The notes under the pieces were generated by a model, which was not told the origin of the DNA, searched no databases, and saw only the letters and a program-made list of their open reading frames with translations. Shown here piece by piece: positions 48,429 through 63,797 of a stretch of DNA of 64,000 bases. The DNA lies in the NCBI RefSeq assembly GCF_001509555.1, contig NZ_LMAS01000001.1, forward strand, positions 466,971 through 530,970, in the 5' to 3' direction. The stretch is from Bacillus sp. FJAT-29937 (GTDB lineage: Bacteria > Bacillota > Bacilli > Bacillales > Cytobacillaceae). Both the position numbers and the translations under genes were made by a program. Position 1 is the stretch's first letter. Each line of letters starts with the position of its first letter.

Positions 48429-48465
48429 TTAAAGCACCTCCGAATAGTTTCACACAAGATAGTAT

Positions 48466-48493: not shown

Positions 48494-48533
48494 GGGTTTA
48501 TTCTTTACAGTACAAAAAAACTTTCTAAATGGA

Positions 48534-49886
48534 TTAAAAAGGATTAAATGGAAATTTAAATCCGCCCTTTTTCTTCCCTTTTTGCTGCATTCCCGACATT
48601 TGCTTCATCATTTTCTTCATATCTTCAAATTGCTTCAGCAAACGGTTTACTTCAGGTACAGTTGTGCCGCTGCCCTTTGCAATTCGCTTGCGGCGGCTTG
48701 CATTGATCGTTTCCGGATGAATTTTCTCATTCTTTGTCATCGATCTAATAATGGCTTCAACCTGCGAAATTTGCTTTTCATCCACCTGAAGCTTGTCTAA
48801 GCCTTTCATTTTGCTGGCCCCGGGAAGCATTTTCAGCAATTCATCCAATGGCCCCATACTGCGAACCTGGCTTAACTGCTCTAAAAAGTCATCAAAAGTT
48901 AATGAAGCTGTGCGCATTTTTTGCTGCATTTCTTTCGCTTTTTCTTCATCAACGTTCGCTTGGGCTTTTTCAATAAGAGTAAGAACATCACCCATGCCTA
49001 AAATTCTTGATGCCATTCTTTCAGGATGGAATGGCTCAAGCGCATCCAATTTCTCGCCTAAACCGACAAATTTAATAGGAGTATTCGTGACGGAGCGAAT
49101 AGATAGGGCAGCCCCTCCACGAGTATCGCCATCAAGCTTTGTCAGTACAACACCGGTTAATCCAAGCAGTTCGTTAAAGCTTTGTGCTACATTAACAGCA
49201 TCTTGACCTGTCATTGCATCCACAACTAGGAAGATTTCATCTGGTTTAGACAGCTCTTTAATTTGCTTTAACTCATCCATCAACGCTTCATCAACATGTA
49301 ATCGTCCCGCCGTGTCGATCAACACATAATCATGATGATCTTCCTTTGCCTTTGCAATGGCTTGCTTAGCAATTTCGACAGGGCTCACCTTGTCACCTAA
49401 TGAAAAAACAGGCATACTTAGCTGTTTCCCAAGCGTTTCAAGCTGCTTAATGGCAGCCGGGCGATAAATATCAGCTGCAACGAGCAATGGATTTCGGTTG
49501 TATTTCTTACGGAGCAAGTTGGCAAGCTTGCCAGTTGTCGTCGTTTTACCTGCTCCTTGTAACCCAACCATCATAATGACAGTCGGAGGACGGCTAGAGA
49601 CAGCAATCTTGCTTTGCTCTCCACCCATAAGCTGAGTCAATTCTTCTTTAACGACTTTAACAACCTGCTGCCCTGGTGTTAAGCTCTTTAACACTTCCTG
49701 GCCGACAGCCCGTTCACTTACTTTTTTGACAAACTCTTTGACGACCTTAAAGTTAACGTCTGCTTCTAATAATGCAAGACGAACATCTCGCATCATTTCT
49801 TTTACATCCGCCTCATTTACTTTCCCTTTGCCGCGGATCTTCTGGATTGTATTCTGCAGTCGGTCGGCTAATCCTTCAAATGCCAT
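48534..49886 (-). CDS. ffh: Signal recognition particle protein Ffh
   Basis: A 450-residue SRP GTPase that binds signal sequences and 4.5S/scRNA. The NG domain has GLQGAGKTTTTGKLANLLRK, DTAGRLHVDEALMDEL and TKLDGDTRGGAALS. The C-terminal Met-rich M domain includes SRRKRIAKGSGTTVPEVNRL and MKKMMKQMSGMQ. It starts 11 bases after ylxM. Its receptor FtsY is encoded about 13 kb away, beyond the eight-gene block. Confidence 0.98.
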   Translation of the reverse strand: MAFEGLADRLQNTIQKIRGKGKVNEADVKEMMRDVRLALLEADVNFKVVKEFVKKVSERAVGQEVLKSLTPGQQVVKVVKEELTQLMGGEQSKIAVSSRPPTVIMMVGLQGAGKTTTTGKLANLLRKKYNRNPLLVAADIYRPAAIKQLETLGKQLSMPVFSLGDKVSPVEIAKQAIAKAKEDHHDYVLIDTAGRLHVDEALMDELKQIKELSKPDEIFLVVDAMTGQDAVNVAQSFNELLGLTGVVLTKLDGDTRGGAALSIRSVTNTPIKFVGLGEKLDALEPFHPERMASRILGMGDVLTLIEKAQANVDEEKAKEMQQKMRTASLTFDDFLEQLSQVRSMGPLDELLKMLPGASKMKGLDKLQVDEKQISQVEAIIRSMTKNEKIHPETINASRRKRIAKGSGTTVPEVNRLLKQFEDMKKMMKQMSGMQQKGKKKGGFKFPFNPF

Positions 49887-49897
49887 GTTGCCGCCTC

Positions 49898-50230
49898 CTA
49901 ATCTAATTTCTCAAGCTCAGCAATCATTGAATTCATTACTTCTAGAATCTCAGGATTTTCTTTAAGAATGTCCTTCATGCTTGCAAACAGCTTACTTCGC
50001 TCTTGAAATTTTTGAAATAATAACAGCTTTTCTTCATACTCTTCAAGCATTGCTTCAGTGCGTTTAATATTGTCGTAAACTGCTTGACGACTGACATCAT
50101 ACTCCTCTGCAATCTCTCCAAGCGAATAATCATCCAGGTAATAAAGGGACATATAGCTTCGCTGCTTAGGAGTCAACAACGATTGATAAAAATCATAGAG
50201 ATAATTCATTCTCGTTGTCTTTTCTAACAT
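49898..50230 (-). CDS. ylxM: YlxM family SRP-associated DNA-binding-like protein
   Basis: A 110-residue protein with a helix-turn-helix of the sigma-70 region 4 type ([20 protein letters not shown]). YlxM is encoded next to ffh throughout Firmicutes and modulates the SRP pathway in streptococci. It is the first gene of ylxM-ffh, driven by a strong promoter just upstream. Confidence 0.95.
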
Positions 50231-50270
50231 CCCTATTCCCCCTTGTTAAGTGAAAAGCCTTTACAAACAT

Positions 50271-50299
50271 AGTTTACCTAGGACATTTGAATATGTCAA
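50271..50299 (-). promoter_or_regulatory. Strong sigma-A promoter of ylxM-ffh
   Basis: On the minus strand a consensus TTGACA (50294-50299), a 17-base spacer and TAAACT (50271-50276), about 41 bases before ylxM. It isolates ylxM-ffh from the eight-gene block, for which I see no clear terminator in the 135-base spacer. Confidence 0.85.
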
Positions 50300-50365
50300 G
50301 AAATTATCTTTACATTCCGAACTAGTTAAATTTAAATTTGAAAATAGCAGTAAATAGGCAGTCTC

Positions 50366-53146
50366 TTAATTCTTCCGTTTTTTTGCTTCAAGAAGCCTTT
50401 TCATTCTTTCAGCCCGTTCTTCAGCTGACACTTGAACGTCTTTTTGTACTTTCTTCGGCCTAGCTTGTTTCATTTTATCATTTGTTTGCAGGGTCTTCAC
50501 CGCTTTTTCTTCGGCCTTTCTATCATTTTTTAAAGCGGGCTCATCCCTGCTAGAATTTGCCTGTTTTATTTTTTCTTCGCGACTAAAACTGCTTCCGCGC
50601 TTTTCCAATCTCGCTTTTCTATTGTGACTGAATTGCGTAATCAACCCAAATCTTCGGATGGCGATTTCGATAAAAAACAGCAAAAAGGCAGCTAGAATTA
50701 ACCATTGGCTTATTGACTGCTTCTCATACTTTTTGGACATTAAGGGCCTAAAGGTTTCCTTTTCAGTCACTAATGCTTTTCCCCCGGTCTTTTTCGCTAA
50801 TTCCGTTAGAAGGGCTTCATTCGGGCCATTGATTAAATACTCATCTGAATATGGAACAGTGAAACCAGTTTGATAAGTATGAATCGATCCGTCTTGATTT
50901 GTTTGCTTTACACTTAGAAAAAACATACCTGACGAATTTGGCATCGAAAGCTCATATTTGCCTGGAGCCACAAGCTTCGTATTCGTATGAAGGACTTCCC
51001 CATTCTCTGAGACGAGAGAAGCCTCAATTGGTAAAGTTTGGTTTGTTGCTGATTCTAATGACAGAATCGGATTACCATCAACATTAGAAAATTGAATTCT
51101 ATATGGCTCACTCTCATACTGAGGAAGAGTTTTTGTCACTAGCTGATTAATAAATAGCGGCCAGTTTTCCCAGCGAGCCCAATCACCTGACCATTTTCCT
51201 GAAAAATCAGATGTAAAGGCAATCGTATGACCCATTCCATATTGCCATTCTGCAAGGATTGGATCTTCCTTTTCACTTAAAATAGGCACCTGTGCACGTC
51301 CCTTTGGTGTTGTGGCAATGTAGGCGTTCATCTTCGGAACCCCATCCTGAAATAATTTTGACCAGTCTGGAATAGGCTGGATACTAGGAAAAAAGGGATC
51401 ATCCTCAATATACGTTCTAGTTGCCATGACAGTTTCACGTGAGAGAATGCTTGGGATCACCGAAGAATCCGTTACATCATAAAACCGGCCAGATCCCATA
51501 TTGGCTAAATCCTCAAGCAAACCTCGATCAGCATCGCTTCCTAATGCGACTGTCGACAGGGTAATATTTTTTTCCTTTCCTTTTTCAATCAATCCCTCAT
51601 AATCACCGCCGGGCGCTTGCCCATCTGTCAGCAGGATAATATGCTTTCTCTGCAGCTTCAGATCCTCTAGCTCTTGAAAAGCGAGCTCCAAAGAAGAATA
51701 AATTTCAGTTCCGCCGCCCGGTGTAACAGATCGAATTTGATCAGCCACTTTTTTCTTATCTTTAATAGGCTTTGTTTCAACGATTACCCAAGGACGGTCA
51801 TCAAAAGCAATAAAGCCAAGGGTATCCTCTTCCCGCAATAATGCTACTGATCTTGCTGCAGCTTCCTTTGCGAGTTCAAGCTTTGATCCTGCCATACTTC
51901 CAGACCGATCCATTACAATCATCAAACCGAGAGAAGGCATCTCTTGTTTCCCTTTAAGATCCATATCTACAGGCAAAAGTTTTTCGATAGGAGTTTTAAA
52001 GTATCCTCCTAGACCAAAGCTTTCCTCTCCTCCTGCCATCACAAAGCCGGTACCAAATTCCTTTACTGCTTTCTCAATCATATTCATCTGGCTCTCTGTG
52101 ATGACTGTTGCTGGTACGTTATTGAAAATAATCGATTGGTACTGAAGATAGCTTGATAGTGTTGTCGGAAGTTTTTCCGGCGAAATGGTCTCAGCCTCTA
52201 CACCAGAATTACTTAAAATAGCTTCTAAATTGCCGCCCTCTTTTCCTTGAACAATTAGTATTTTAGGTGTCCCTTTAACATTTGCAACGGAATGCATCAT
52301 ATTATTTTCGATAAAAGTATCGTTTTCGGCAGCAATCTCACCCTTATATACTGTCAGTCCCGATGTATCCGCTTTGTGAGTAAAAGTATAGACATTCTTT
52401 CCTTCCTTCACATGAACAATCTCTTTGAGAATTTCTTGATTATTTACGGAAAGCCGAATGACAGCATCTTTATCAGCATTGCTATCAATGACAAAGGAAA
52501 CGAGTGCCTCCTCACCTTTATACAGTGAAGGAGGGACATTTATCTCAGATAATGACATATCTTCCCCGACATGATTTTTTAACAGAACATAGTCAAGTTC
52601 AATATTGCGATTTTTAAGAAGATTAGCAGCTTCCAAGCTGTTCCCTGCAGTTTCGTTTCCATCCGATAGCAGCACGATTCTGCCGCTTGCATGAGGAGGA
52701 ATTAATGATGCTGCAAACTGTATTCCTGCTTCTATATTTGTTTCACCATCATCAATCTCGCTATTAAATTGCTGAGGCGGACTTTTTCTGATTCCAGTAT
52801 TTTGTTCCAATGAAACATTTTCACCAAAAGTGACTATAGCGAAAGAATCATCCTGGTGCTTATCCATGACACTCTTTTCAATCCATTCAAGAAGCTGGTG
52901 GTCAGACTGGCTGACACTTGCAGAACGGTCAGCTAGAAAAACAACCGTTTCGCCCTTTGATGGAAGTAATATTTGCGGGACCGTTAAGGCAAAAATTAAT
53001 AGAACAAATATAGTCAGCCTCATACTTGCTATCCAATAGAATTCCTTGGAGGGAGTTTGCTTTTTCTGCTTAAGGAATAGATAAACTGCCAACATTGCAG
53101 GAATTAGCAGCAAAAATAGAATGGGATAATTAAACTCTATGCCCAC
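50366..53146 (-). CDS. Large membrane protein with two VWA domains and a glutamine-amidotransferase-like segment
   Basis: A 926-residue protein, eighth gene of the block. Two membrane helices (about 8-25 and 38-60) lead into an incomplete VWA domain with DRSASVS (Asp73, Ser75, Ser77). A second, complete VWA domain follows with DRSGSM near residue 412. Between them is a stretch like the GATase-1-like fold (MAGGEESFGLGGYFKTPIEK). A third membrane helix is near 820-840, then a Lys/Glu/Arg-rich cytoplasmic tail of about 90 residues. The start is GTG after GGGAGG, overlapping the previous gene by 17 bases. Exact function unknown. Confidence 0.88.
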   Translation of the reverse strand: MGIEFNYPILFLLLIPAMLAVYLFLKQKKQTPSKEFYWIASMRLTIFVLLIFALTVPQILLPSKGETVVFLADRSASVSQSDHQLLEWIEKSVMDKHQDDSFAIVTFGENVSLEQNTGIRKSPPQQFNSEIDDGETNIEAGIQFAASLIPPHASGRIVLLSDGNETAGNSLEAANLLKNRNIELDYVLLKNHVGEDMSLSEINVPPSLYKGEEALVSFVIDSNADKDAVIRLSVNNQEILKEIVHVKEGKNVYTFTHKADTSGLTVYKGEIAAENDTFIENNMMHSVANVKGTPKILIVQGKEGGNLEAILSNSGVEAETISPEKLPTTLSSYLQYQSIIFNNVPATVITESQMNMIEKAVKEFGTGFVMAGGEESFGLGGYFKTPIEKLLPVDMDLKGKQEMPSLGLMIVMDRSGSMAGSKLELAKEAAARSVALLREEDTLGFIAFDDRPWVIVETKPIKDKKKVADQIRSVTPGGGTEIYSSLELAFQELEDLKLQRKHIILLTDGQAPGGDYEGLIEKGKEKNITLSTVALGSDADRGLLEDLANMGSGRFYDVTDSSVIPSILSRETVMATRTYIEDDPFFPSIQPIPDWSKLFQDGVPKMNAYIATTPKGRAQVPILSEKEDPILAEWQYGMGHTIAFTSDFSGKWSGDWARWENWPLFINQLVTKTLPQYESEPYRIQFSNVDGNPILSLESATNQTLPIEASLVSENGEVLHTNTKLVAPGKYELSMPNSSGMFFLSVKQTNQDGSIHTYQTGFTVPYSDEYLINGPNEALLTELAKKTGGKALVTEKETFRPLMSKKYEKQSISQWLILAAFLLFFIEIAIRRFGLITQFSHNRKARLEKRGSSFSREEKIKQANSSRDEPALKNDRKAEEKAVKTLQTNDKMKQARPKKVQKDVQVSAEERAERMKRLLEAKKRKN

Positions 53147-54896
53147 GCCTGAATACCTCCCATTCTAAAGCAATAATACATAAAGCTAGTAAGGCAAGCC
53201 AAAACCACAATTTATCATTTGGATTTTCCCTTTTCCCATTCTCTTGAGCCTTCTGCTCGTTAAGATGGAAAGCTGTCTCCACCTTTGGATGTTTCTCCCG
53301 ATCGTCAAGCAGGACTGAGAAATAGAATATTTTATTTCCTGAAACAGCCTGATACGTGCCTGGCTCAATAGGTGCTTTAAAGCTTTCCTTCGTTAAATCT
53401 AAAGTATACAAATTCTTATCTTCGTTATTAAAAATTTCAATGCTCTGATTTCCTTGACCAATATTCAGCCATTTTTCCTCGCCCGGTCCAAAGTAACCAA
53501 GAAAATCTGTTTGCTTAGAAAGCCACTCATATGCATTATATAGAAAAATTGGAAAGCTTGGCTGAAGTGGCCAATCAGAATCTGACAATGAAAAGTTTAT
53601 GATGATGATGGGGTGGCCATTTACTTGTCCCCTTTGGATTAATGGCAGATTGCCGCTTTTTACAATCGTTTCCCAATCACCCTGTAATTCCTTCGATGCT
53701 GTTTCAATATATATTTTTCCATAATCAACATATTGAAGCAGCCGATCATCCTTAGCCGCCAATGGGTCAGACAACTGTATTTTGTCATTGTTCGAATTGA
53801 AAAAAATCGTTGGCTGTTCGAGCTGTTTCGGCAACTCGGTGCCTTCAGTCAAGAGGATTCCTTGGACATGGTCGGCATTGCCTGCATTTGTTTGCAGCAG
53901 TTCAGCTCCGATCGTTTGAAAACCTTTTATTGCAAATGGATTTACCTCTCCCACTGTATATACCTTTGGATTACTTTCTGTAAAAATCGATGTTGAGTAA
54001 TTATCGGCTTCATAACCATCTAGATTCAAAATCATTGCTTCGTAATATGGCTTTTCCGGCAGAGAAGGAATTTGCACGACATATTGCTGGGCCCCTTCAA
54101 TTGTAAACTTCTGTTCGAAAAGCTTATCTTCTTCACTTTTTACTATAAAATCAATTTCCATCTTTTCATCTGTTTGATTTTCAATTAAAGCAACACCAAT
54201 AATTTGTCTATCAACAGGCGCAACCCCAAATGAAAGGAGTGAAGCATTGTTGACACCCTCCCCGATATTATGAACCTCAACATATTGATCCTTCATAGTC
54301 TCTTCAACATTTGACTTCGCAACTCCGTCTGAAAAAATATGGATGGACGTATTCTTTTCAGTTGAAAGCGAGGCTGCTAGATTCATTGCTTTATCCATCT
54401 GCTCATGCTCGTAGTTCAATTGCAAGCTATTGACTAGCTTTTTAATTACAGCGGTATTCCTTTCGTGGCTTAAAAGAATTTCCGGCTTCTTCCCCGCTTT
54501 TATCAAGGTGACCTCCTGTCCTTCAAGCTTTTCTATTAGATTAAGCATTTTCTGCTTTGCTATTTCAAAGCGGCTGCTTTTTTCAAATTCAGCTGACATG
54601 GAGGCTGAAGAATCAATAATCATGATGACATGATCCCCCTTTATAGCGTTCTCAAACCAAAACGGCCGGACAAGTGAAAACATTAACAGTAAAAGGGCTA
54701 ACAGCTGGAGCCAAAATAATAGGTTTTGCTGAAGCTTCTTAAGCCAAGGAGAAGCTTGCCACTCATTTAACACTTGTTCCCAAAGAAAGTTAGAGGAAAC
54801 AGATTTCTCCACATATTGCTTCCGGAAAAAATAAAATAATATGACGGCAGCTATAAAAACAGTTAATAGAAAAAACCACGGATTTAAAAATTGCAT
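53130..54896 (-). CDS. BatA-type membrane-anchored VWA protein
   Basis: A 588-residue protein. The first 80 residues hold two membrane helices with the BatA N-terminal pattern (MQFLNPWFFLLTVFIAAVIL). A VWA domain with MIDAS residues Asp95, Ser97 and Ser99 (IIDSSASM) follows, then a long extracytoplasmic beta-rich region and a final membrane helix (about 565-583). Such proteins pair with MoxR ATPases and are thought to bind metal-dependent ligands at the envelope. It is 9 bases after the DUF58 gene and overlaps the next gene. The substrate is unknown. Confidence 0.88.
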   Translation of the reverse strand: MQFLNPWFFLLTVFIAAVILFYFFRKQYVEKSVSSNFLWEQVLNEWQASPWLKKLQQNLLFWLQLLALLLLMFSLVRPFWFENAIKGDHVIMIIDSSASMSAEFEKSSRFEIAKQKMLNLIEKLEGQEVTLIKAGKKPEILLSHERNTAVIKKLVNSLQLNYEHEQMDKAMNLAASLSTEKNTSIHIFSDGVAKSNVEETMKDQYVEVHNIGEGVNNASLLSFGVAPVDRQIIGVALIENQTDEKMEIDFIVKSEEDKLFEQKFTIEGAQQYVVQIPSLPEKPYYEAMILNLDGYEADNYSTSIFTESNPKVYTVGEVNPFAIKGFQTIGAELLQTNAGNADHVQGILLTEGTELPKQLEQPTIFFNSNNDKIQLSDPLAAKDDRLLQYVDYGKIYIETASKELQGDWETIVKSGNLPLIQRGQVNGHPIIIINFSLSDSDWPLQPSFPIFLYNAYEWLSKQTDFLGYFGPGEEKWLNIGQGNQSIEIFNNEDKNLYTLDLTKESFKAPIEPGTYQAVSGNKIFYFSVLLDDREKHPKVETAFHLNEQKAQENGKRENPNDKLWFWLALLALCIIALEWEVFRRGHRV

Positions 54897-54905
54897 AGCC
54901 TCACC

Positions 54906-55772
54906 TCAGTTGATTAACCCTTTCCCGGAAAAGTCATGAAATAATATGGATTGAATATCCCGGTTATCACTTGCAAGTACATAATGACCGCCAAATTTTC
55001 GGCATAGACCTTCTAAGTGTCGATTGTGCTCTTGGATTCGTTTTTCGTATTCTGCTATGATGGACGGACTCATGCTGACATTCACAATTGAATCTGTTTC
55101 AGCATCAATTAATTTCATATCCCCTGAATATCGGGGAGATATTTCTTCACTGCTAAGCACTTGAATAAACCAGACCTCTTGCTTATAGGCTGCCAGTTTT
55201 TTCAACAAATTTTCTATTTCGTTTAGAGGCTCTAGACCGTCCGTTATGATAATGGAAAGCTGCTGCGATTTAACAATTGATTTATTCAAGTTCTTGATAA
55301 ACTCGCCGGTCGTTTCTGCTTCATCCAGCTGGAGAATTTCTACAAACGTCCGCCTGCTATAGACGGCCCCCTTCCTCTTAACAGGCTGGATGCCTCTTGA
55401 TGAAACTGGAGTGAAAAACAGTCTGTCATCACTATTTAACACGATAAAACTTAGTGCTGCTCCTAAATACTTTGCTAGTTCCCATTTTTTATTTATTTTC
55501 CTCATGGAGGAGGTTGCATCAAGATAAATAGCGATAGATAGTTCCTGTTCGTCCAGATACCTTTTAATATAATGCTTTTGTGTTCTTCCATAGACATTCC
55601 AATCAATTTGCCGAACATCGTCGCCTGGCTGATATGCCCTAAAATCCGAGAATTCTAGAGAAGACCCGAACTTACTAGATTGTCTTGAGCCTTTGTGGAA
55701 GCCTCTCTTTTTCGTCTTAACCATTATTCTTTTTTTCTGCAATTTACTAATGAGCGCATGCTGATTGGTCAT
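54906..55772 (-). CDS. DUF58 family protein (VWA-like adaptor)
   Basis: A 288-residue soluble protein. The DUF58 signature EFSDFRAYQPGDDVRQIDWN spans residues 40-59, and the VWA-like MIDAS begins at Asp85 in YLDATSSM. The second MIDAS position is Thr87, where most relatives have Ser. No membrane segment is seen. DUF58 proteins nearly always accompany MoxR ATPases. It overlaps the MoxR stop codon by one base (TAATG), so translation is coupled. Confidence 0.93.
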   Translation of the reverse strand: MTNQHALISKLQKKRIMVKTKKRGFHKGSRQSSKFGSSLEFSDFRAYQPGDDVRQIDWNVYGRTQKHYIKRYLDEQELSIAIYLDATSSMRKINKKWELAKYLGAALSFIVLNSDDRLFFTPVSSRGIQPVKRKGAVYSRRTFVEILQLDEAETTGEFIKNLNKSIVKSQQLSIIITDGLEPLNEIENLLKKLAAYKQEVWFIQVLSSEEISPRYSGDMKLIDAETDSIVNVSMSPSIIAEYEKRIQEHNRHLEGLCRKFGGHYVLASDNRDIQSILFHDFSGKGLIN

Positions 55773-56785
55773 TATCCTCTTGCACCCTGTCCAAGATTAT
55801 CTAGTATATGTGCGATCATCTCATCAGCCGTCATGCCATTAGCTTCTCCTTCGAAGTTCAAAATGAGGCGATGTCTTAAGACTGGCTTAGCCACATGCTT
55901 AATATCACCTACAGACACATGATATCTTCCTAAGGAGATGGCTCTTGCTTTAGCTAGGCTAATTAAGCTTTGAAGACCACGCGGACCGCTTCCATACTGA
56001 ATGAATTGCTTTACTAATTCCGGTGCTTCCAAAGAATCGGGGTGTGTAGCTGAAATGATATTTACAGCATAATCAATGATGTCTTCTGAAACTAATACCT
56101 CTTTAGTCAAATGCTGAAGTGCTATGACATCCTCTACATTAGCCATTTTTTCTAATTGGACAGTTTCCGTTCCTGTTGTCCGTAAAACAATTTCTTTTAG
56201 CTCTTCTTTAGAAGGATAATGAACATGCACTTTACAAATAAAACGGTCTGTTTGAGCCTCCGGGAGCGGATAAGTTCCTTCCATGTCAATTGGATTTTGC
56301 GTAGCCAATACGAAAAACGGGTTTTCCATTCGTTTAGTTTCACCCATAATGGTAACGGTTTTTTCTCCCATCGCCTCCAGAAGGGCACTTTGTGTTTTTG
56401 GGGTGGCTCTATTAATTTCATCTGCCAAAACTATATTTGCAAATAATGGCCCTTTATGAAAAACAAAATTTTGTCTTCCCGCTTCATCCGGCTGAAGAAG
56501 CATCGTTCCTGTAATATCGGATGGCATTATATCTGGTGTAAATTGAATGCGGGAGAATTGCAGATCCATGCATTCAGCTATCGTTTTGATCAGCATTGTT
56601 TTTCCTAATCCAGGAAGCCCTTCTAATAGTACATGGCCACCAGCTAATATGCTCCATAATACTTGATCTATAACCTCGTTTTGGCCGACCATAAATGATT
56701 GAATTTCATCTTTGACCTTTGAGATTGTTTCAGCAGCAAAGGTAAATTGCTGTTCCTTTTCTGTTATTGAAGTCAATTTTGTCAC
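55772..56785 (-). CDS. MoxR family AAA+ ATPase
   Basis: A 337-residue AAA+ ATPase. Walker A GLPGLGKT is at 56-63, Walker B ends in LADEINRATPK with Asp122-Glu123, and the block LATQNPIDMEGTYPLPEAQT is the MoxR sensor-1 region. MoxR ATPases act as chaperones that remodel or load metal into VWA-containing partners, four of which or their fragments lie in this operon. The start is GTG at 56785 overlapping the previous stop, or TTG at 56776, which has better Shine-Dalgarno spacing (AAGGAG, 8 bases). Confidence 0.96.
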   Translation of the reverse strand: MTKLTSITEKEQQFTFAAETISKVKDEIQSFMVGQNEVIDQVLWSILAGGHVLLEGLPGLGKTMLIKTIAECMDLQFSRIQFTPDIMPSDITGTMLLQPDEAGRQNFVFHKGPLFANIVLADEINRATPKTQSALLEAMGEKTVTIMGETKRMENPFFVLATQNPIDMEGTYPLPEAQTDRFICKVHVHYPSKEELKEIVLRTTGTETVQLEKMANVEDVIALQHLTKEVLVSEDIIDYAVNIISATHPDSLEAPELVKQFIQYGSGPRGLQSLISLAKARAISLGRYHVSVGDIKHVAKPVLRHRLILNFEGEANGMTADEMIAHILDNLGQGARG

Positions 56786-58368
56786 TCCTTGTTCGGATCG
56801 ATATTTGTAAAGTAATTTTTAACGATTTCCTCTAAATCGGCTGGCAGTTTGTACCTGTCTGTACTTTGCCGGTAAGCTTTTTCATAGGTTTCAAAAACCT
56901 CATCATACGGTTTGATAGACCCTTTTAGTACTGGTCCAGAACCTTCTGTTTGCTCGGCAGGGCTTCCTTCACCAAGTCCGCCGTTATCTGTTTCAATATT
57001 TGTCTGACCGTTTAACTGATCAGGGACTGTGAGCAGCTCACGAGAGCCTTGCCCTTTGCCCGCTCCCAAACCGCCAGAACCGCTGCCGCTTCCTGAGCCT
57101 GAGCCTCCTGAACCGGGGCCAGAGCCGCTGCCACTGCCGGAGCCAGTTCCTGAACCGCTTCCTGCTCCATTCCCCTGTCCACTCCCTGAACCTGAACTGT
57201 TTCCGCCAGACGAGCCTTGAGGATTTTGGCCAGGCTGCTGTCCATTGCCATTCTGTCCACTTGGCTGACTCCCTGGAGAATTAGCTTGATTACTAGGCTG
57301 AGCTGGAGGGGCGAAGGCAAGCTGACCGGGAGGAATCCCATTTGAAGCCATTTGATTTTGCATTGCTAATCCTGTTTTTTGCAAAGCTTGCTGTGCAGCG
57401 GCAAGCTGGGCTAGAAATTCATCAGAATTAAGCGCACTTTCAATCTGTTCCATTAATTTAGCCAGTTCTTCTTCAGTGAGTTGGCGGTCATTATCGGTTA
57501 ATTGATTAAAGGCCATCTTCTGTTCTTCTGTAAGTTCATCCCATTTTTCATTTAACTTAGATATTTCTTTTTCAATGGCTTCTAAGCTTTTTTCATTTAG
57601 AATCTTTTCTAAATCCGACAATCCGTTATTTTTCAATTCATTCTTCCAGTTTTCAAGTGCCAGTTGTTTTTCTTTTTCCTTCAGAGCCTTTAATTCCAAT
57701 TCCTTTTTCTGTTTAGCCAGCTCTTTTAATGCTTCCTCTGCAGATTTCTTTTCTGCTATTTTGTCTGCTGCTTCCTGAAGGGCTTTTTTCACTTCTGGAT
57801 CTTTTTCCTTTTTGATTTCTTCCTTTAGTTCTTTTTTAGCCTCTGCTACAAGCTTAATTTCCTTCTCCTTCTGCTTTGCCAGATTGATGTTTTCATTAGG
57901 AAAAACAAATAGAAATATAGCTGCTGCTGTGATTGCAAGACTTAATAGCAGCCATCTTGGATAAAAGTATTGTTTTTTTCTTTTATACACTTTTTCACTA
58001 GTATTCTTCATGTGCTTAACAGCATCAGATAGCTGAAGGGAAGCCATGATTCCTTCTGTTTTTAAGAAGCTATATGCTGTCAAAACCCGATCATCCGGTA
58101 CAAATCGGTTATAAATGAGGGCCGCTTCGTATTTTTTTGAACGTTTTCTCCAAATTCGAATGATAAAAACGATGAACAGTGCAAGTATAATGGAAAAGAA
58201 ATAATAGTGAACAAAAGGAATGACAATAAATCTTGCCAGCCCGAGCAGAATAAGGGCCAGAGCTCCTGCAAATACAAGCAGAAGCTGTACCTCCTTAATG
58301 ATTAACTGAACGAGCAGCTGTTTCTGTATGGGCCTTAACAGTTTTTCAAATTGTTTGCGATCCTCCAT
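56782..58368 (-). CDS. Membrane coiled-coil protein with Gly/Ser linker (DUF4175-like layout)
   Basis: A 528-residue protein. Two membrane helices (about 30-70) and a third (about 145-163) precede a very Lys/Glu-rich coiled coil (about 165-330). A Gly/Ser/Pro/Gln linker covers about 355-440, and a conserved-looking C-terminus (YKLPADLEEIVKNYFTNIDP) ends the protein. Similar proteins ending in a YF motif stand beside MoxR/VWA genes in other bacteria. The ATG at 58368 follows AAGGA by 9 bases; an ATG at 58377 is the alternative. The linker DNA is notably GC-rich for this genome. Function unknown. Confidence 0.82.
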   Translation of the reverse strand: MEDRKQFEKLLRPIQKQLLVQLIIKEVQLLLVFAGALALILLGLARFIVIPFVHYYFFSIILALFIVFIIRIWRKRSKKYEAALIYNRFVPDDRVLTAYSFLKTEGIMASLQLSDAVKHMKNTSEKVYKRKKQYFYPRWLLLSLAITAAAIFLFVFPNENINLAKQKEKEIKLVAEAKKELKEEIKKEKDPEVKKALQEAADKIAEKKSAEEALKELAKQKKELELKALKEKEKQLALENWKNELKNNGLSDLEKILNEKSLEAIEKEISKLNEKWDELTEEQKMAFNQLTDNDRQLTEEELAKLMEQIESALNSDEFLAQLAAAQQALQKTGLAMQNQMASNGIPPGQLAFAPPAQPSNQANSPGSQPSGQNGNGQQPGQNPQGSSGGNSSGSGSGQGNGAGSGSGTGSGSGSGSGPGSGGSGSGSGSGSGGLGAGKGQGSRELLTVPDQLNGQTNIETDNGGLGEGSPAEQTEGSGPVLKGSIKPYDEVFETYEKAYRQSTDRYKLPADLEEIVKNYFTNIDPNKE

Positions 58369-58388
58369 TGGTTTCATTCCTTATCTGT

Positions 58389-59234
58389 TCATCCCTTTTT
58401 CATATTAGGACGCAGTTTTTTAATACTGATAAATACAGCACCAATTATGATGACTGTATACGAAATTAAATAAGAGATCCATAAAGGGAATTTAATCCCT
58501 GTTGTATTCGCAATTTCTCTTGAAAATTCAGGCTCAAAAGTACTTAGCAAAATGATTGGCGGATTAAGCATCGCCGCAAAATAAGCTAATGGGCTTGCTG
58601 ACGGTGTTCCGGTGTATCCATAGCGATTGGCGAATTGCATAAATACGAGCGTCAAAAAAGCAGTACCGCCTGCTAAAAATAAAGTAACTCCATAAGCCGA
58701 CACCATCGAAACAATCGTTTTCCTAATAAGTGTTGATAATAGTACACCGACAGTGCCAAAGGCAATCATCGTGAAAATATAAAAGGAAATGGTCGTTAAC
58801 ACCTGACCCGGGGAAATTCCTCCGAACAGAAAAACGAAGCTGTAAAGCGGAAGTCCCGCAATAATTAATAAAAGTAAGTAAGAGATGGACGATATAAGCT
58901 TGCTTAGGATAATGCTGGCCGAGCTTTGTGTCGTTGTCAGCATGATGTTCAACGTCTGTCTCTCACGCTCACTGCTAATTACACCTGCTGTTAATCCGGG
59001 AGTGATAAACAGGACTAAAGCGAGCTGAAGAAAAGAGAGCATGATGAATATCGTCCTGCTTTGGTCTGGCTTGAAGAAGCCATGTGAGTTCGATAATGAC
59101 TCAATAAACACAAATCCGACAATGATTAATCCAAGTGCCAGCAAATAGAAGAGAATGCCAAGAAAGCTTTTAAAAGATCGGAAACGAAGCTTAAATTCCT
59201 TATTCAGAACAGGGTTAATAACAAAATTCTTCAT
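58389..59234 (-). CDS. ABC-2 type transporter permease
   Basis: A 281-residue membrane protein with six hydrophobic segments (about 22-46, 64-85, 108-135, 142-165, 172-195 and 245-268). The block SSERERQTLNIMLTTTQSSA before the third segment is typical of ABC-2/GldF-like permeases. It overlaps its ATPase gene by 4 bases. Direction and substrate of transport cannot be told from the sequence. Confidence 0.92.
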   Translation of the reverse strand: MKNFVINPVLNKEFKLRFRSFKSFLGILFYLLALGLIIVGFVFIESLSNSHGFFKPDQSRTIFIMLSFLQLALVLFITPGLTAGVISSERERQTLNIMLTTTQSSASIILSKLISSISYLLLLIIAGLPLYSFVFLFGGISPGQVLTTISFYIFTMIAFGTVGVLLSTLIRKTIVSMVSAYGVTLFLAGGTAFLTLVFMQFANRYGYTGTPSASPLAYFAAMLNPPIILLSTFEPEFSREIANTTGIKFPLWISYLISYTVIIIGAVFISIKKLRPNMKKG

Positions 59235-60166
59235 GACAGCTCTACTCCCTTAGTAATTTCCATAAATACATCTTCCAGGTTCGTCTCAATTTCCGAAAAG
59301 CTTATGATCGCTAGATTGTTTATGATCGCTTTTTTCAGTAATTCCGTTTGTTCAAAGGCAGAGCCTTTGTATATAAATTGCAGGGAGTTTTCCTCCTCAC
59401 CTTTAATTAATTTCGACACATTTGGATCATCTTCAAAAAAGGCTGCCGCTTTCTCGAGATCTTGATATGTCTTAACAATAATCAGTTTCTCTCCTTTTAA
59501 CTTCGCTTGTATGTCCGAAACTGCCCCTTCAGCAACAAGCTGGCCTTGATCAATAATTCCAATCGTATCGCACATTTCAGCTAGCTCCGGCAGAATATGC
59601 GAAGAAATTAATATCGTTTTCCCCATGCTCTTTAGTTCCTTTAATATTTCTCGCATTTCTACACGCGCTCTTGGATCAAGTCCAGAGGCAGGTTCGTCCA
59701 GGATTAACACTTCAGGATCATGGATTAAACTTCTGGCCAAGCATAAACGCTGCTTCATTCCTCTTGACAGTGCGTCAACATAGGAGTCCTGCTTATGAGA
59801 TAAATTAACAAGATCGAGCAATTGGGGAATAAGCTTTTCTCTTTCATGCAATGGAATTCCATAGCTTGCACCATAGAAATGTAAATATTCTATTGTCTTG
59901 AGCTGATCGTAAACACCAAAGAAATCCGGCATATACCCAAGCTGTCTTCTAACCATCTTCGGTTCCTTTTGAACGTTATACCCGTTTATATAAGCTGTCC
60001 CTGAACTCGGGGCAAGCAAAGTAGCTAATATTGAAAAGGTTGTTGACTTTCCAGCGCCATTTTGCCCGACAAATCCGAAAACAGAGCCTTTATCAATTTG
60101 CAGATTAAGTGAATTCAGCGCGGTAAAATTTCCGTATCGTTTTGTTAGGTCGATAATTTCAATCAT
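59231..60166 (-). CDS. ABC transporter ATP-binding protein
   Basis: A 311-residue ATPase. Walker A GQNGAGKST is at 34-42, Walker B LILDEP at 154-159 and the H-loop is in ILISSHILPELAE. The signature is LSRGMKQR (133-140) rather than LSGGQ, a variant common in ABC-2 drug/GldA-type ATPases. A C-terminal domain (about 215-311) is present. It is coupled by 4-base overlaps to genes on both sides, so the ABC pair and the large secreted protein form one unit. Confidence 0.95.
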   Translation of the reverse strand: MIEIIDLTKRYGNFTALNSLNLQIDKGSVFGFVGQNGAGKSTTFSILATLLAPSSGTAYINGYNVQKEPKMVRRQLGYMPDFFGVYDQLKTIEYLHFYGASYGIPLHEREKLIPQLLDLVNLSHKQDSYVDALSRGMKQRLCLARSLIHDPEVLILDEPASGLDPRARVEMREILKELKSMGKTILISSHILPELAEMCDTIGIIDQGQLVAEGAVSDIQAKLKGEKLIIVKTYQDLEKAAAFFEDDPNVSKLIKGEEENSLQFIYKGSAFEQTELLKKAIINNLAIISFSEIETNLEDVFMEITKGVELS

Positions 60167-62547
60167 GGTGTCACATCCCCTTTAATAGTGATCACCGGTA
60201 GTTGAACATGTGGATCACCTTTTGCATTTTTTATAAGCAATAACTTTATTTCGCCTTCCTTTGAAATAAATGGCTGAATATTGTTTTCATTAGTAAGAGT
60301 GAGGCTTCGTTTATCCGCTTCAATTAGAAGCCATTCCCCAGTGCCATAATTAAATACCGAATACTGAATCAGTTGACTGTTCGTTTTAATAGTCATTTCA
60401 TCCAACTTAATGCCTTTATCTACTATTTGCTTTGGTAGCTGAACAATATATTCATATTCTCCATCATCCATAGCCATTTCCCGATTCGATCCATTGATCA
60501 TATTCTCAAAAATATGTCCTTTAAGCACATTCACATGGGAGCTTAACATATCGTTCTTAATCGTCACTGCTCCCGAGAACTCATGTTCAGCATGAAAAGA
60601 CTGTACAATAAGATTCGTATTATCCTGTTTTTCCTTTTTGCCCGCCATATTAACGTCTAAAATAGCATCTTTCGTAAATCCGCCAATAATCGGTTCATTT
60701 TTAGTTCCGTTTATTAAAATAAAGTTTGAGGCAGCATATTGTAATCTATCTTTTCTCATTTTATTAATATCTGAATTCTGATAGGAATAGTTCGGCCCAC
60801 CAGCACCAGTAGGCTTTGTCAGAAGCGCCTGCTTCATTTGTTTATCTACCTGTAATGACTCCCCCTTCTTCAATGGACCTAAGCTAATTTTTTCATTTCC
60901 TGACCAAATAAAAACTTCCTCAAAATCAAAGTCAAAACCGTTGTGAATATTTCCTGTCAACTGACTATTTTTAAGTGTAAGATCTGTTGTAAAGCTGCCC
61001 TCTGTTTTCGTGCTTGCCTTGCCATACAGAGTTTTTGATGACCAGTAGCCGACTTCTGGGAAGACAATATCAGTAGTTTTGCGTTTTTCTTCAAACACCG
61101 CATTCCTTGCAGCATCATAGCCATTCATATTCTGTGTACTTGTCACAGCTTTAAAATCCTTTGGTATGGAAAGAGTATATTCCCCGCTTTTATTCGATAA
61201 TAGTGTTGCTGCTTGTAATCCTGTTAAATGTTTATCAGATACTTTGTAAACGCCCATTTGATTAAGCTGGGGCTTAGCAATCCGGTCTTTTGCGCCTATT
61301 CCAAATACAATGGCAGCCATCATTAAAGCTAGTGAAGGAATAATCCACCATGAATGCTCCCTTTTATCCAGTTTCCGCAAAACAAAATATAATAGGGGCA
61401 CAATGACAATGATATATCCACCCAATAAAGCAATAAGCTGACTGATTGAAAAATGGCTGGCAGGGAAAAATTCATTTGCCTCTACAAAATCCCAATATAG
61501 TGACCCATAAAAATCCGGGCCATATCTTCCAAAGAACATATTCGTTTTATCAGCTTCATTCAAAAACTTGGCAAACCAACTGCTATAGCCCTTCCATGAG
61601 GATAGAGGTTCATCCCCAAGAGAAAACCCCGTTTGTAAAATAGTTCCATCTCCAACTTTTATTTTGGCCGTTATTGGAGTTGACTCACTTTGATCAATAA
61701 TGTCAGCAGTTTTTTCTACTGCTCCAGTGAAAACATTCAACTCTTTAAAGTTTGGATTTTTCTCCTGATCGACAAGCTTAAGGAAATCAGCAGAAACCTT
61801 CATTTCACTATCCATTTTCATTGGGAGCAAAGAATATATATCACCATAAGAACCGCTTCCATTAGGAGAAGCCCCTGCAATTAAAACGCCTCCCCCTTCA
61901 ATCCATTCCTTAATGGCTGTTTGCTGCTCTTTGTCCAATTGTGCCAGAGGGTATTCATCAATGAGCAAGTAATCAAGCATCTCTAGTCCCAATGACCGCT
62001 TAGGCATTTGTTCCTTCTTGAGTTCAATCATTTGCGTTTGAGTAAAAGGAAGAATTCTTAATTCCTTTAATCGATCATAATTCTCGCTTAATACACCTAT
62101 TACATTTTCATTCATATCGATGTGATGTATTTTTATTTTGTCTGACCCAGTAAATTTGATTTTTTTTCCTTTTTTCCAATCTCCTTTGTAAAGAGAAAGT
62201 TGGGAAAGATTTTGGTATGATGATGGATGGTCATCTGTTACCCCTGGAAATGAAACTTGATATGTTTTCGCAGAATTTGCAGGAAGATCAACATTTACCG
62301 AAATTGCACCCCCTGTATTCCAGGAAGGATTGAAATTAACTAATAAATCTCCGGAAAATGCTTCTCCTTTATTTTCAAGCTTAATAGTGAGCGGAAAGCC
62401 TTTCCCCACCTTCACTTTTCCGTTAAAGCCTGACTCAAGTGTAATATTTATATTTTCAGCATCTGCTTTAACAGTTGGCAGAAAAATGCCAATGGTCAAG
62501 AAAAAGCTAACTAAAAGACCAATGGCTAATTTAATACTTTTTTGCAT
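60163..62547 (-). CDS. Large secreted/membrane protein of the ABC-MoxR-VWA block
   Basis: A 794-residue protein, first gene of the block. It has a signal peptide (about 1-29, cut near VKADAEN), a beta-rich extracytoplasmic half, and a DUF4350/GldG-like segment (MLDYLLIDEYPLAQL, then IKEWIEGGGVLIAGASPNGS, about 185-225). Two adjacent membrane helices lie at about 370-390 and 400-420, and a second large extracytoplasmic part follows. I do not recognise a named family for the whole protein. A GldG-like partner of the ABC transporter is the most likely role (inference). GGGGGAG precedes the ATG. Confidence 0.85.
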   Translation of the reverse strand: MQKSIKLAIGLLVSFFLTIGIFLPTVKADAENINITLESGFNGKVKVGKGFPLTIKLENKGEAFSGDLLVNFNPSWNTGGAISVNVDLPANSAKTYQVSFPGVTDDHPSSYQNLSQLSLYKGDWKKGKKIKFTGSDKIKIHHIDMNENVIGVLSENYDRLKELRILPFTQTQMIELKKEQMPKRSLGLEMLDYLLIDEYPLAQLDKEQQTAIKEWIEGGGVLIAGASPNGSGSYGDIYSLLPMKMDSEMKVSADFLKLVDQEKNPNFKELNVFTGAVEKTADIIDQSESTPITAKIKVGDGTILQTGFSLGDEPLSSWKGYSSWFAKFLNEADKTNMFFGRYGPDFYGSLYWDFVEANEFFPASHFSISQLIALLGGYIIVIVPLLYFVLRKLDKREHSWWIIPSLALMMAAIVFGIGAKDRIAKPQLNQMGVYKVSDKHLTGLQAATLLSNKSGEYTLSIPKDFKAVTSTQNMNGYDAARNAVFEEKRKTTDIVFPEVGYWSSKTLYGKASTKTEGSFTTDLTLKNSQLTGNIHNGFDFDFEEVFIWSGNEKISLGPLKKGESLQVDKQMKQALLTKPTGAGGPNYSYQNSDINKMRKDRLQYAASNFILINGTKNEPIIGGFTKDAILDVNMAGKKEKQDNTNLIVQSFHAEHEFSGAVTIKNDMLSSHVNVLKGHIFENMINGSNREMAMDDGEYEYIVQLPKQIVDKGIKLDEMTIKTNSQLIQYSVFNYGTGEWLLIEADKRSLTLTNENNIQPFISKEGEIKLLLIKNAKGDPHVQLPVITIKGDVTP

Positions 62548-62565
62548 CTAAATCTCCCCCAGCAA

Positions 62566-62619
62566 CTTCCATAATAATGTTAATTTCCATAATAAAATTA
62601 ATTTCCATAATAATAGACG
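62566..62619. repeat. Three 18-bp tandem repeats in the leader of the eight-gene block
   Basis: Three contiguous 18-base units (62566-62583, 62584-62601, 62602-62619) share the core TTTCCATAATAA on the plus strand, with consensus TTTCCATAATAAWRTTAA. The first 12 bases differ at only one position across copies (a C in unit 1). They lie between the promoter and the first gene, ending about 19 bases before its ATG. Direct, regularly spaced copies suggest binding sites or an RNA element. Confidence 0.8.
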
Positions 62620-62649
62620 AAAAATATTGGTGAAAGTTCTCGCTCTTTT

Positions 62650-62679
62650 ATTAAAATAGGTAAATGGAAGGATTATCAA
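62650..62679 (-). promoter_or_regulatory. Promoter of the eight-gene block
   Basis: On the minus strand TTGATA (62674-62679), an 18-base spacer and TTTAAT (62650-62655), each five of six consensus bases. It starts just after the ftsY terminator. The predicted leader is about 95 bases and contains the tandem repeats. Confidence 0.65.
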
Positions 62680-62687
62680 ACTAGAAA

Positions 62688-62726
62688 ATAAAAAAACAGC
62701 CAAATGCACTGTTCGGCTGTTTTTAC
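62688..62726 (-). terminator. Terminator of ftsY
   Basis: A perfect 10-bp inverted repeat AAAAACAGCC / GGCTGTTTTT (arms 62715-62724 and 62692-62701, 13-base loop) with a long U-run on the minus strand. It lies about 14 bases after the ftsY stop codon and separates smc-ftsY from the eight-gene block. Confidence 0.93.
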
Positions 62727-62738
62727 ATGTATTTTCAA

Positions 62739-63728
62739 TTAATCAGCTTCTTGTTCCACTAACTCTGCAAAAAGCCCATAAACATATTGCTCTGCATTAA
62801 ATTCCTGGAGGTCATCCATTTTTTCTCCGAGACCGACAAATTTAACTGGGATATCCAGTTCATTTCTGATAGCAAGGACGATTCCGCCTTTTGCTGTACC
62901 ATCAAGCTTTGTAAGAACAATTCCGCTAACATTTGTCGCTTCCTTGAAGGTTTTTGCTTGAATCATTGCATTTTGGCCAGTAGTAGCATCAAGGACTAGA
63001 AGAACCTCATGCGGAGCGCCAGGTACTTCCCTTTCAATCACTCTCTTAACCTTTTCAAGCTCTTTCATCAAGTTTACTTTATTTTGAAGCCTTCCAGCTG
63101 TATCGCAAATTAATATATCTGCATTGCGGGATTTTGCAGCTTGAATCGCATCAAACATAACAGCGGCAGGATCTGACCCTTCACCCTGCTTAATGACTTC
63201 AACACCGACTCTTTCCCCCCAAACCTCAAGCTGTTCGATCGCTCCCGCTCTGAAGGTATCTCCGGCTGCTAATATCACCTTATTGCCTTCCGTTTTGAAT
63301 TTATGTGCAAGCTTACCAATGGTTGTTGTTTTCCCAACACCATTAACCCCAACAAACAGGATAACGGTTAGTGAATCGGATTGGATATTAAGCTCGGATG
63401 AAGATTTTCCGCCAGCCTCATAAATTTCAACTAGTTTCTCAGAAATTACACTTTGAACTTCTCTAGGATCTTGAATGTTTTTCCTTTTCACTTCTAATTT
63501 TAATTCTTCCACAAGCTTCATGACGGTATCGAAGCCAACATCCGCTTGAATGAGGATTTCCTCTAATTCCTCAAAGAAATCTTCATCAACCTTTCGATAT
63601 CGGGCAACGAGATCATTTACTTTATTTGAAAAATTGTCTCTTGTTTTTGCCAATCCATCTTTAAACTTTTCTGTTACACTATCCGTTTGTTTTGTAATTT
63701 TTTCTTTTAATTTTTTGAAAAAGCTCAT
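62739..63728 (-). CDS. ftsY: Signal recognition particle receptor FtsY
   Basis: A 329-residue SRP receptor GTPase, the same length as in B. subtilis. The NG domain carries VGVNGVGKTTTIGKLAHKFK, DTFRAGAIEQLEVW, DTAGRLQNKVNLMKEL and TKLDGTAKGGIVLAI. The N-terminal A region is short and charged. It follows smc by 69 bases, a spacer with a strong hairpin. Confidence 0.98.
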   Translation of the reverse strand: MSFFKKLKEKITKQTDSVTEKFKDGLAKTRDNFSNKVNDLVARYRKVDEDFFEELEEILIQADVGFDTVMKLVEELKLEVKRKNIQDPREVQSVISEKLVEIYEAGGKSSSELNIQSDSLTVILFVGVNGVGKTTTIGKLAHKFKTEGNKVILAAGDTFRAGAIEQLEVWGERVGVEVIKQGEGSDPAAVMFDAIQAAKSRNADILICDTAGRLQNKVNLMKELEKVKRVIEREVPGAPHEVLLVLDATTGQNAMIQAKTFKEATNVSGIVLTKLDGTAKGGIVLAIRNELDIPVKFVGLGEKMDDLQEFNAEQYVYGLFAELVEQEAD

Positions 63729-63764
63729 TACGGTTCACTTCCTTTAATATAGAATCATATGTAC

Positions 63765-63795
63765 TTGGAGCCGGCCGAAAAAGGCCAGCTTCCAA
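63765..63795 (-). other. Hairpin in the smc-ftsY spacer
   Basis: On the minus strand TTGG-A-AGCTGGCC pairs with GGCCGGCT-CCAA (12 bp, one bulged A, one G-U, loop TTTTTC). It lies 2 bases before the smc stop region's end and upstream of ftsY. No U-run follows, so read-through into ftsY is expected; an mRNA stability or processing role is inferred. Confidence 0.65.
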
Positions 63796-63797
63796 CT

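Follow-up and report, generated by a model that had tools for sequence, protein, structure and literature searches.

The 64,000-nucleotide stretch of the Bacillus sp. FJAT-29937 genome analysed here (the window) carries eight co-oriented genes, A to H (50366-62547), between ftsY and the ylxM-ffh pair. The open reading frames confirm this arrangement, which had been proposed from an earlier sequence-only reading of the same DNA. The genes are tightly packed: A/B, B/C and D/E overlap by 4 nt each, E/F by 1 nt and G/H by 17 nt, in agreement with the overlaps of 1-17 nt given before. The accompanying claim of gaps of 9-20 nt was slightly wide, since C/D and F/G are separated by 11 and 9 nt, respectively. 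A scan of positions 46000-64000 against Rfam gave no match at gathering scores.

Table 1. Genes and predicted signals of the eight-gene block and its flanks, in window coordinates.
Feature	Positions	Strand	Remark
Gene A: secreted/membrane protein, 794 aa	60163..62547	-	
Gene B: ABC ATPase, 311 aa (DrrA/GldA/ABCA-like)	59231..60166	-	
Gene C: ABC-2-type permease, 281 aa	58389..59234	-	
Gene D: three-TM protein with coiled coil and Gly/Ser-rich stretch	56782..58377	-	
Gene E: MoxR-type AAA+ ATPase, 337 aa	55772..56785	-	
Gene F: DUF58 protein, 288 aa	54906..55772	-	
Gene G: BatA-type VWA membrane protein, 588 aa	53130..54896	-	
Gene H: double-VWA membrane protein, 926 aa	50366..53146	-	
ftsY	62739..63728	-	upstream flank
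ylxM	49898..50230	-	downstream flank
ffh	48534..49886	-	downstream flank
ECF-sigma-type promoter-like site AACTTT-N13-CGTCTA	62614..62638	-	box 72 nt before A start
Intrinsic-terminator-like hairpin after ftsY	62692..62724	-	upstream of the block's promoter-like site

The first three genes form the ABC half of the block. The product of gene A comprises a signal-like N-terminal helix, a beta domain (residues about 30-145) and a GATase1/GIFT-like domain (146-335), followed by two transmembrane helices and a large C-terminal beta region. It matches no NCBIfam model and, in Pfam, shows a weak similarity to DUF7408 below the cut-off of that family. The fold searches of A and H, which we judge on the domains listed, recovered the GATase1/GIFT-like fold in A and barely probed its C-terminal beta region. 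Gene B matches the Pfam families ABC_tran (100 bits) and DrrA1-3_C (32.6 bits, cut-off 27.4), and falls below the cut-off of the NCBIfam drrA model. The solved chains nearest to it are ABCA lipid transporters, a resemblance common among ATPases of this kind. Gene C matches ABC2_membrane_2 (28 bits, cut-off 27.2), and together B and C supply the ABC ATPase and the ABC-2 membrane protein expected of an ABC-2/DrrA-type exporter.

Gene D has no assigned Pfam family, and its C-terminal motif is strongly conserved, with Tyr491, Val494, Tyr498, Arg508, Pro512, Leu515 and Tyr522 invariant in 21/21 sequences. A and D remain nameless in both NCBIfam and Pfam, and the other parts receive generic names only. 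The product of gene E is a MoxR-type ATPase (AAA_3, 208.6 bits, cut-off 27; structure 2r44, E 5e-81) with conserved P-loop and DEINRA stretches. Gene F belongs to the DUF58 family and keeps Asp85, Ser89 and Asp178 in 41/41 sequences; a search for transmembrane helices in it found none. Gene G combines a BatA domain (PF07584, 55.6 bits, cut-off 25.9) with VWA_2, and its MIDAS is partial, lacking the threonine. Gene H contains two VWA_2 stretches and a GATase1-like part (26.1 bits, cut-off 27), the second VWA domain being inserted within the GATase1-like domain, and the fold search likewise returned GATase1/GIFT-like and VWA folds. Both of its MIDAS motifs—Asp73/Ser75/Ser77/Thr136/Asp162 and Asp413/Ser415/Ser417/Thr480/Asp508—are invariant in 26/26 sequences. 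The block therefore pairs a MoxR-type ATPase with adjacent VWA partners, G and H, that carry MIDAS residues. Hydropathy places most parts of the block outside the cytoplasm and predicts that G and H are anchored in the membrane, with their VWA domains facing outward.

Is the block a single unit? All eight genes occur in one order in 40/42 Bacillales loci by tblastn (35/42 under a stricter ORF rule) and in 12/19 distant Bacillota loci, counts that are not independent because the loci are related. The junctions recur as well: the overlap is exactly 4 nt in 36/42 loci for A/B and in 35/42 for B/C, and 17 nt in 28/40 for G/H, with start codons as chosen by the script. Among 39 sequence sets, including that of the window, the pairwise distances of seven block proteins correlate with one another (r 0.81-0.97), and they also correlate with those of ftsY (r 0.73-0.93). 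The rigid order, the overlapping genes and the correlated distances bear out the proposal of a single inherited unit.

We surveyed 151 genomes of the window's family, 150 of them with a listed ftsY, and found 50 carriers. In 49 of these the block sits at the ftsY-ylxM site, and in the exception (G016) it lies on another contig. In 99 of the 100 listed non-carriers the block is absent and ftsY and ylxM are 85-4394 nt apart; the remaining one (G001) was left out, as its distance was not measurable. Cytobacillus depressus BZ1 (L010) and C. citreus FJAT-49705 (L009) carry the block. In other families the block is mostly found at different addresses, and two of their loci (L093 and L098) also use the ftsY-ylxM site, which is thus an address used mainly in one family. 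The gene order, which the sequence-only reading had asked to be surveyed at this site, recurs across the phylum. What that reading had considered special, a fusion of two systems in one operon in a Firmicute, is thus no local event, and the block is a single operon with a wide distribution.

Next to gene A, an ECF-type promoter signature is conserved in relatives. In the 260 nt that precede A, 33/43 loci have the ECF-sigma-type -10 box CGTCTA and 10/43 lack it; shuffled sequences gave a mean of 0.93 and a maximum of 4, in a comparison that is not a blind test, because the looser pattern was chosen after viewing the sequences. The wider pattern AAC-N16/17-CGT[CT] occurs in 24/43 loci. CGTCTA precedes 2/124 flanking ORFs and neither ylxM nor ffh (0/22 each). 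Upstream of the other block genes it occurs 0-2 times per gene, a weak comparison because the DNA upstream of inner genes is coding. At loci away from the SRP site the box is present in 11/19 and missing in 8/19, and among the distant loci it precedes A in 1/13. Classical sigma-B, sigma-A and sigma-E patterns are rare upstream of A (1, 2 and 0 of 43, respectively). The strict pattern TGAAAC-N-CGT was found in only 4/43 loci, while a looser -35 element recurs with CGTCTA, and GAACTTT-N-CGTCTA was found in 0/43 at the spacing used.

Which other genes share this promoter? In the window's own genome, the searches have little power, with 4 pattern matches against 3 in reversed controls and 1 against 2; one of the four (L166) has no clear gene downstream. 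Across the genus, the two patterns gave 39 matches against 20 and, with TGTAGGG, 7 against 4, and therefore about half of the matches could be due to chance. A locus was assigned to 30 of the 39, four of which (L177, L185, L195 and L197) lack a clear downstream gene; of the seven TGTAGGG matches, two lie inside ORFs and two have no clear gene. AACTTTT-N12-CGTCTA also stands before ltaS (L172), DUF1002, spx, ECF-sigma and wecA/tagO-like genes, and similar promoters precede PAP2-phosphatase genes. A search of the own genome for the cognate ECF sigma factor did not find it: the best match to the sigma piece of L196 is only 40% identical, and no CGTCTA promoter was seen before its gene. Sites resembling the sigma-X and sigma-W consensus sequences were seen by eye before two other sigma candidates of this genome.

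Two features support the envelope role that had been suggested for the block: parts of its proteins are predicted to lie outside the cytoplasm, and its ECF-sigma-type promoter is of a kind that also precedes cell-wall genes. The promoter signature further suggests a role in the protection or rebuilding of the cell surface. We thus read the block as one co-inherited operon whose products would make up an envelope system that spans the membrane and uses two ATPases. In many Bacillales, cell-envelope stress would induce it through an ECF sigma factor, presumptively of the sigma-M/X/V class. We assign this reading as a whole a probability of roughly one half.

How would such a system work? We propose that A, G and H come together outside the membrane, joined by the long Gly-rich arm of D, and that this assembly would hold a surface client through its MIDAS sites, with the GATase1/GIFT-like domains also serving for docking. 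On the inner side, the MoxR ring of E, together with the VWA-like DUF58 protein F, may pull or twist the tails that the membrane subunits extend into the cytoplasm, and could thereby assemble, reset or release the extracytoplasmic complex. The ABC unit—B and C, with A as the outer subunit—would move or extract this client, for which a lipid or a lipid-linked polymer is the likeliest candidate. More tentatively, the block may encode a phylum-wide Gram-positive machine, in which the MoxR/DUF58 ring and the ABC pump act on one GIFT/double-VWA assembly and the Gly-rich arm of D passes through the wall. Such a machine could be an effector of the stress response, replacing, extracting or repositioning lipid-linked wall or teichoic-acid polymers, and a sigma-M-type arm that B. 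subtilis lost or never had. The block is not known from B. subtilis.

The halves may instead be separate modules, with A-B-C as an exporter and D-H as a MoxR/VWA system; both would answer envelope stress and for that reason share one promoter, yet would not form one machine. Among the 42 Bacillales loci, two (L095 and L105) have only A-B-C, and gene H was sought in their genomes and not found. In the wider set of loci, B is missing in L149, L158 and L160, and F-G-H alone was detected in L161. The two halves are therefore separable, a point that bears on the coupling of AAA+ remodelling to an ABC-2 pump suggested by the sequence-only reading. E-H-like genes occur in Ketogulonicigenium (L162) without A-C and in Deinococcus (L163) with an NMT1-type ABC set in their place. 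On the other hand, all eight genes stay together in the great majority of the Bacillales loci and in most of the distant ones, the three loci without B retain A, and pairwise distances are correlated between A-C and E-H. We consider this alternative the strongest competitor, though an unlikely one.

A protein secretion or surface-assembly system, with the ABC and MoxR motors exporting or assembling a surface protein, appears less probable still. It would suit the mostly extracytoplasmic parts, and the GIFT-like domain of A with its MoxR-VWA partners matches the proposal made for archaeal DUF4350/MoxR/vWA proteins (PMC5898192). However, no shared cargo gene adjoins the block, by eye, in the 11 loci with printed flanks, and the promoter class indicates cell-wall polymers over protein cargo, though it also precedes two subtilase genes. 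A Bat-type aerotolerance or oxidative-stress system, for which the shared MoxR, DUF58 and BatA-family proteins would speak, is very doubtful: none of the eight block proteins matches the BatD or TPR (BatC/BatE) families of Pfam at E <= 0.01, and for Leptospira biflexa the Bat label is itself unsupported, since a bat deletion there altered no oxidative phenotype (PMC3557215). MoxR-VWA pairs elsewhere are described as metal- or cofactor-insertion chaperones of the NorQ/NorD or CoxD kind (PMC13036017), but such a role is highly improbable here, as there is no metalloenzyme among the eight genes, and the predicted topology of the membrane proteins G and H puts the VWA outside, whereas the VWA of NorD works at the AAA+ ring. 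An equally improbable mobile or defence cassette inserted in the SRP locus would account for the patchy presence, the varied genomic addresses and the transposase-like genes that, by eye in the same 11 loci, adjoin the block in L099 and L101, but PADLOC returned no defence family beyond generic ATPase models (B and E) and a marginal coiled-coil match to D (E 0.0056), and nearly all family carriers share one site.

Operons of the MoxR-DUF58-VWA type are common, yet no function for them is accepted. Here, a Gram-positive set has a stable link to an ABC exporter and, in many carriers, stands behind a putative envelope-stress promoter. The block supplies a concrete regulon, inducers and phenotypes to probe in organisms near B. 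subtilis, for which sigma-M genetics is well established. Should the promoter reading be correct, the long-open question of what MoxR-VWA envelope systems do becomes experimentally approachable.

The component modules of the block are known; for their combination, ABC with MoxR-DUF58-VWA, our literature searches showed no earlier description in the listed titles and abstracts. The GldA-GldF-GldG complex of gliding Bacteroidota likewise joins an ABC ATPase and an ABC-2 permease, with a GIFT-domain partner to which A may correspond. The label "GldA/F/G-like" given to the block before is only partly apt: B and C match the GldA (TIGR03522; 241.2 bits, cut-off 402.6) and GldF (TIGR03518; 28.2 bits, cut-off 288.5) models below their cut-offs, and A, which has no NCBIfam match, would resemble GldG through its GATase1/GIFT-like fold. 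The Gld complex is not known to include a MoxR or VWA part. Bat loci, which consist of MoxR-DUF58-BatA-BatB-BatC-BatD-BatE, share with the block a MoxR, a DUF58 and a BatA-family VWA protein in one operon, whereas the block adds the ABC unit, gene D and the double-VWA/GATase1-like protein, and has no BatD or TPR match. In archaea, the arCOG01314 (DUF4350) set similarly places a GldG-like flavodoxin-fold protein with a MoxR-family ATPase and vWA partners, and was predicted to be a secretion or membrane remodelling system; it differs in its S-layer-type partners, and no ABC-2 unit is among the components noted in the available text (PMC5898192). The RL3499-RL3502 operon of Rhizobium leguminosarum is reported to be important for membrane integrity and cell morphology (PMC3893208), with impaired growth on TY medium for RL3499 and RL3500 (PMC5118466). 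It is led by a MoxR gene but belongs to a Gram-negative organism, and we set it beside the block by description. That operon is not known to contain an ABC unit. Finally, the B. subtilis-type yeaC-yeaD-yebA locus (MoxR-DUF58-transglutaminase) shares the MoxR and DUF58 pair. A like locus (L209) exists separately in the genome of the window. It differs in having no VWA or ABC gene seen next to it, and against the block models its E-like protein reaches 307 bits and its F-like protein 23 bits, as compared to 399-519 and 132-288 bits for the distant block loci.

The eight genes A to H occupy the space between ftsY and ylxM-ffh (hereafter the SRP site) on the minus strand and encode an extracytoplasmic GATase1/GIFT-like protein (A), an ABC ATPase (B), an ABC-2-type permease (C), a Gly-rich membrane coiled-coil protein (D), a MoxR AAA+ ATPase (E), a DUF58 protein (F), a BatA-type VWA protein (G), and a double-VWA protein (H). 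Their junctions, in order, are -4, -4, +11, -4, -1, +9, and -17 nt. With a terminator-like hairpin behind ftsY and a promoter-like site of its own, the block need not be transcribed from ftsY; the H-ylxM interval of the window showed no such hairpin. The assembly is flagged with 9.28% contamination, and a single 784-kb contig carries the block, ftsY, and ffh together. Besides the block, this genome carries two MoxR-DUF58 loci, of which L209 is yeaC-yeaD-yebA-like by eye and lies 3′ of guaA, while the other contains unnamed membrane proteins.

Coordinates of the block, its flanking signals, and related loci
Feature	Sequence	Positions	Remark
Block A to H	window	50366-62547	minus strand
Terminator-like hairpin	window	62692-62724	3′ of ftsY
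Block's own promoter-like site	window	62614-62638	1 match in the window vs 0.14 expected
MoxR-DUF58 locus L209	own genome	G000:C6:1-18000	make-up unlike the block
MoxR-DUF58 locus L210	own genome	G000:C1:219000-238000	make-up unlike the block
Operon-like run, L163	Deinococcus aetherius plasmid pDAETH-2	3388-13851	fused G+H protein, 1334 aa

The gene order is conserved among relatives, and within the family so is the site. We compared 42 Bacillales loci (L009, L010, and L091-L130, the last 40 found via H or A), which were picked for carrying H or A and are related to each other (gene A likeness reaches 92% between L009 and L111 and 90% between L099 and L100), so that locus counts are not independent. 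By tblastn, in which the D matches may arise partly through its Gly-rich stretch, A to H are complete and in order in 40/42 loci. A stricter ORF rule gives 35/42, and the five loci that fail it (L101, L102, L107, L110, and L114) have an ORF or a D-sized gap in the place of D. The overlaps are also exact in most loci: A/B is -4 in 36/42, B/C is -4 in 35/42, and G/H is -17 in 28/40. The remaining two loci, L095 and L105, have A-B-C only, and a search of their genomes, run without a positive control, did not find H. Since the neighbours of L095 are shared, by eye, with L094, L096, and L097, D to H were probably lost there. In L124, an insertion of about 1.6 kb separates B and C. Broken or split copies also occur: H lies in two frames in L093, D is divided into two parts in both L123 and L145, and an H remnant with two stops is present at G007:C233. 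Transposase-like genes were seen by eye close to the upstream side of the block in L099 and L101.

Among 151 sampled genomes of the family Cytobacillaceae, 66 have an H match; 50 of these were read as full-length orthologues (at least 986 bits), and the remaining 16 cover VWA alone or are broken. By the coordinates of H, ftsY (listed for 150/151 genomes), and ylxM, the block lies at the ftsY-ylxM site in 49 of the 50 carriers, two of which (G147 and G076) were judged from one flank because of contig breaks; in the exception, G016, H is on a different contig from ftsY and ylxM. The two flanks are 85-4394 nt apart in all 99 measurable non-carriers (of 100). Gene A matches 33/199 genomes sampled across the order, with long stretches in 32, and H matches 60/398 sampled across the phylum, exceeding 200 bits in 50; all three surveys are samples, not a census. 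The block is real, and its distribution is ordinary: the sequence-only reading had stressed the fusion in one Firmicute, and the present genome is no special case.

The main new result is the presence of CGTCTA, an ECF-sigma-type -10 box by the generally known consensus, upstream of gene A. It occurs within 260 nt in 33/43 loci, as compared to a mean of 0.93 and a maximum of 4 in 200 first-order Markov shuffles, the motif having first been spotted in these same sequences. The identical test gave 0-2 for each of the other block genes, 0/22 for both ylxM and ffh, and 2/124 for flanking ORFs. By address, the box precedes A in 22/24 SRP-site loci vs 11/19 elsewhere, with L123, where tblastn detects ylxM, counted among the 24. 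An AACTTT-like -35 element (AAC[TC]TT-N8-14-CGT[CT]) is found in 21/43 loci vs 0.28 expected, and a TGTAGGG element, which we take to be unlike the sigma-M/W consensus, precedes the box in 9/43 vs 0 expected (L091, L092, L112, L116, L117, L118, L124, L125, and L126). Both classes stand in tandem in some loci.

Which other genes share these promoters? A search of 29 genomes of the genus for AACTTTT-N12-CGTCTA gave 39 matches vs 20 for the reversed pattern. The genes downstream of the 30 matches with a locus, read by eye and spot-checked by HMM on representatives, are ltaS (7), DUF1002 (7), gene A (3), ECF sigma (2), S8 protease (2), lipoproteins (2), spx, wecA/tagO-like, and DUF1287 (1 each), with 4 lacking a clear gene. 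The DUF1002 protein is presumably YpuA, assumed to be sigma-M dependent. The TGTAGGG pattern has 7 matches in the genus vs 4 in the control, before PAP2 undecaprenyl-phosphatase-like genes (2) and gene A (1), the other 4 having no clear gene or lying within ORFs; in the present genome, a relaxed version of it lies before uppP. The DUF1287, subtilase (S8 protease), and small lipoprotein genes among these (L183, L178, L184, L170, and L186) may likewise belong to an ECF-sigma regulon. In B. subtilis, the LTA synthase gene yfnI (PMC3089822) and bcrC are under the control of sigma-M, which also has an Spx branch (PMC11081497, PMC7478892). The box upstream of A, the genus genes sharing its promoter, and these sigma-M targets together make an envelope-stress role likely for the block, a link that is testable.

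The arrangement extends to distant Bacillota. Of 20 stretches taken from 50 strong matches, L140 was too short, leaving 19 loci (L143-L161); A to H are in order in 12, contig ends cut three (L144, L154, and L159), and only F-G-H was detected in L161. L149, L158, and L160 lack the ATPase B and have, by eye, a permease-like ORF in the position of C; a lipoprotein-like gene was seen by eye 5′ of A in L149 and L158. CGTCTA precedes A in 1/13 distant loci (L146). The distances of seven block proteins agree with one another (r 0.81-0.97, 39 sets), the pattern that co-inheritance should leave. Because ftsY correlates with them too (0.73-0.93, 20 sets), the agreement cannot separate co-function from vertical descent.

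Of 35 matching plasmid records, two, both outside Bacillota, have related sets. In L163, an NMT1-type binding protein, a BPD permease, an ATPase, and two unnamed proteins precede MoxR, DUF58, and the fused G+H protein; this NMT1-type ABC importer set occupies the place held by the exporter set in Bacillota. In L162, a Ketogulonicigenium robustum plasmid, a fused G+H protein is followed by MoxR and DUF58, and A, C, and D were not detected there. The other 18 among the 20 plasmid matches listed align to at most 25% of the query, around VWA2. The make-up of L162 and L163 indicates that the E-H-like core is wider than Bacillota, with partners that can differ.

How might such a block work? The DUF58 fold is VWA-like, and F could be the cytoplasmic VWA-like partner of the AAA+ ring of E. 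Force would then reach the outside via G and H, and a possible task of the ABC unit is to move the client or pull it out. We infer this mechanism as a whole; in NorQD, a finger of the VWA protein enters the AAA+ pore, and this protein has been proposed to twist its client (PMC13036017).

Searches of largely open-access literature turned up no description of the eight-gene block. Three known systems are related to it. The R. leguminosarum MoxR protein RL3499 (MRP subfamily) reportedly has an important part in membrane integrity and cell morphology (PMC3893208). In archaea, a secretion system has been predicted in which a GldG-like DUF4350 protein is joined by vWA proteins and a MoxR-family ATPase (PMC5898192). 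In L. biflexa, no oxidative phenotype could be linked to Bat proteins (PMC3557215). Neither the RL3499 system, nor the archaeal DUF4350/MoxR/vWA system, nor the Bat system is known to have the eight-gene set.
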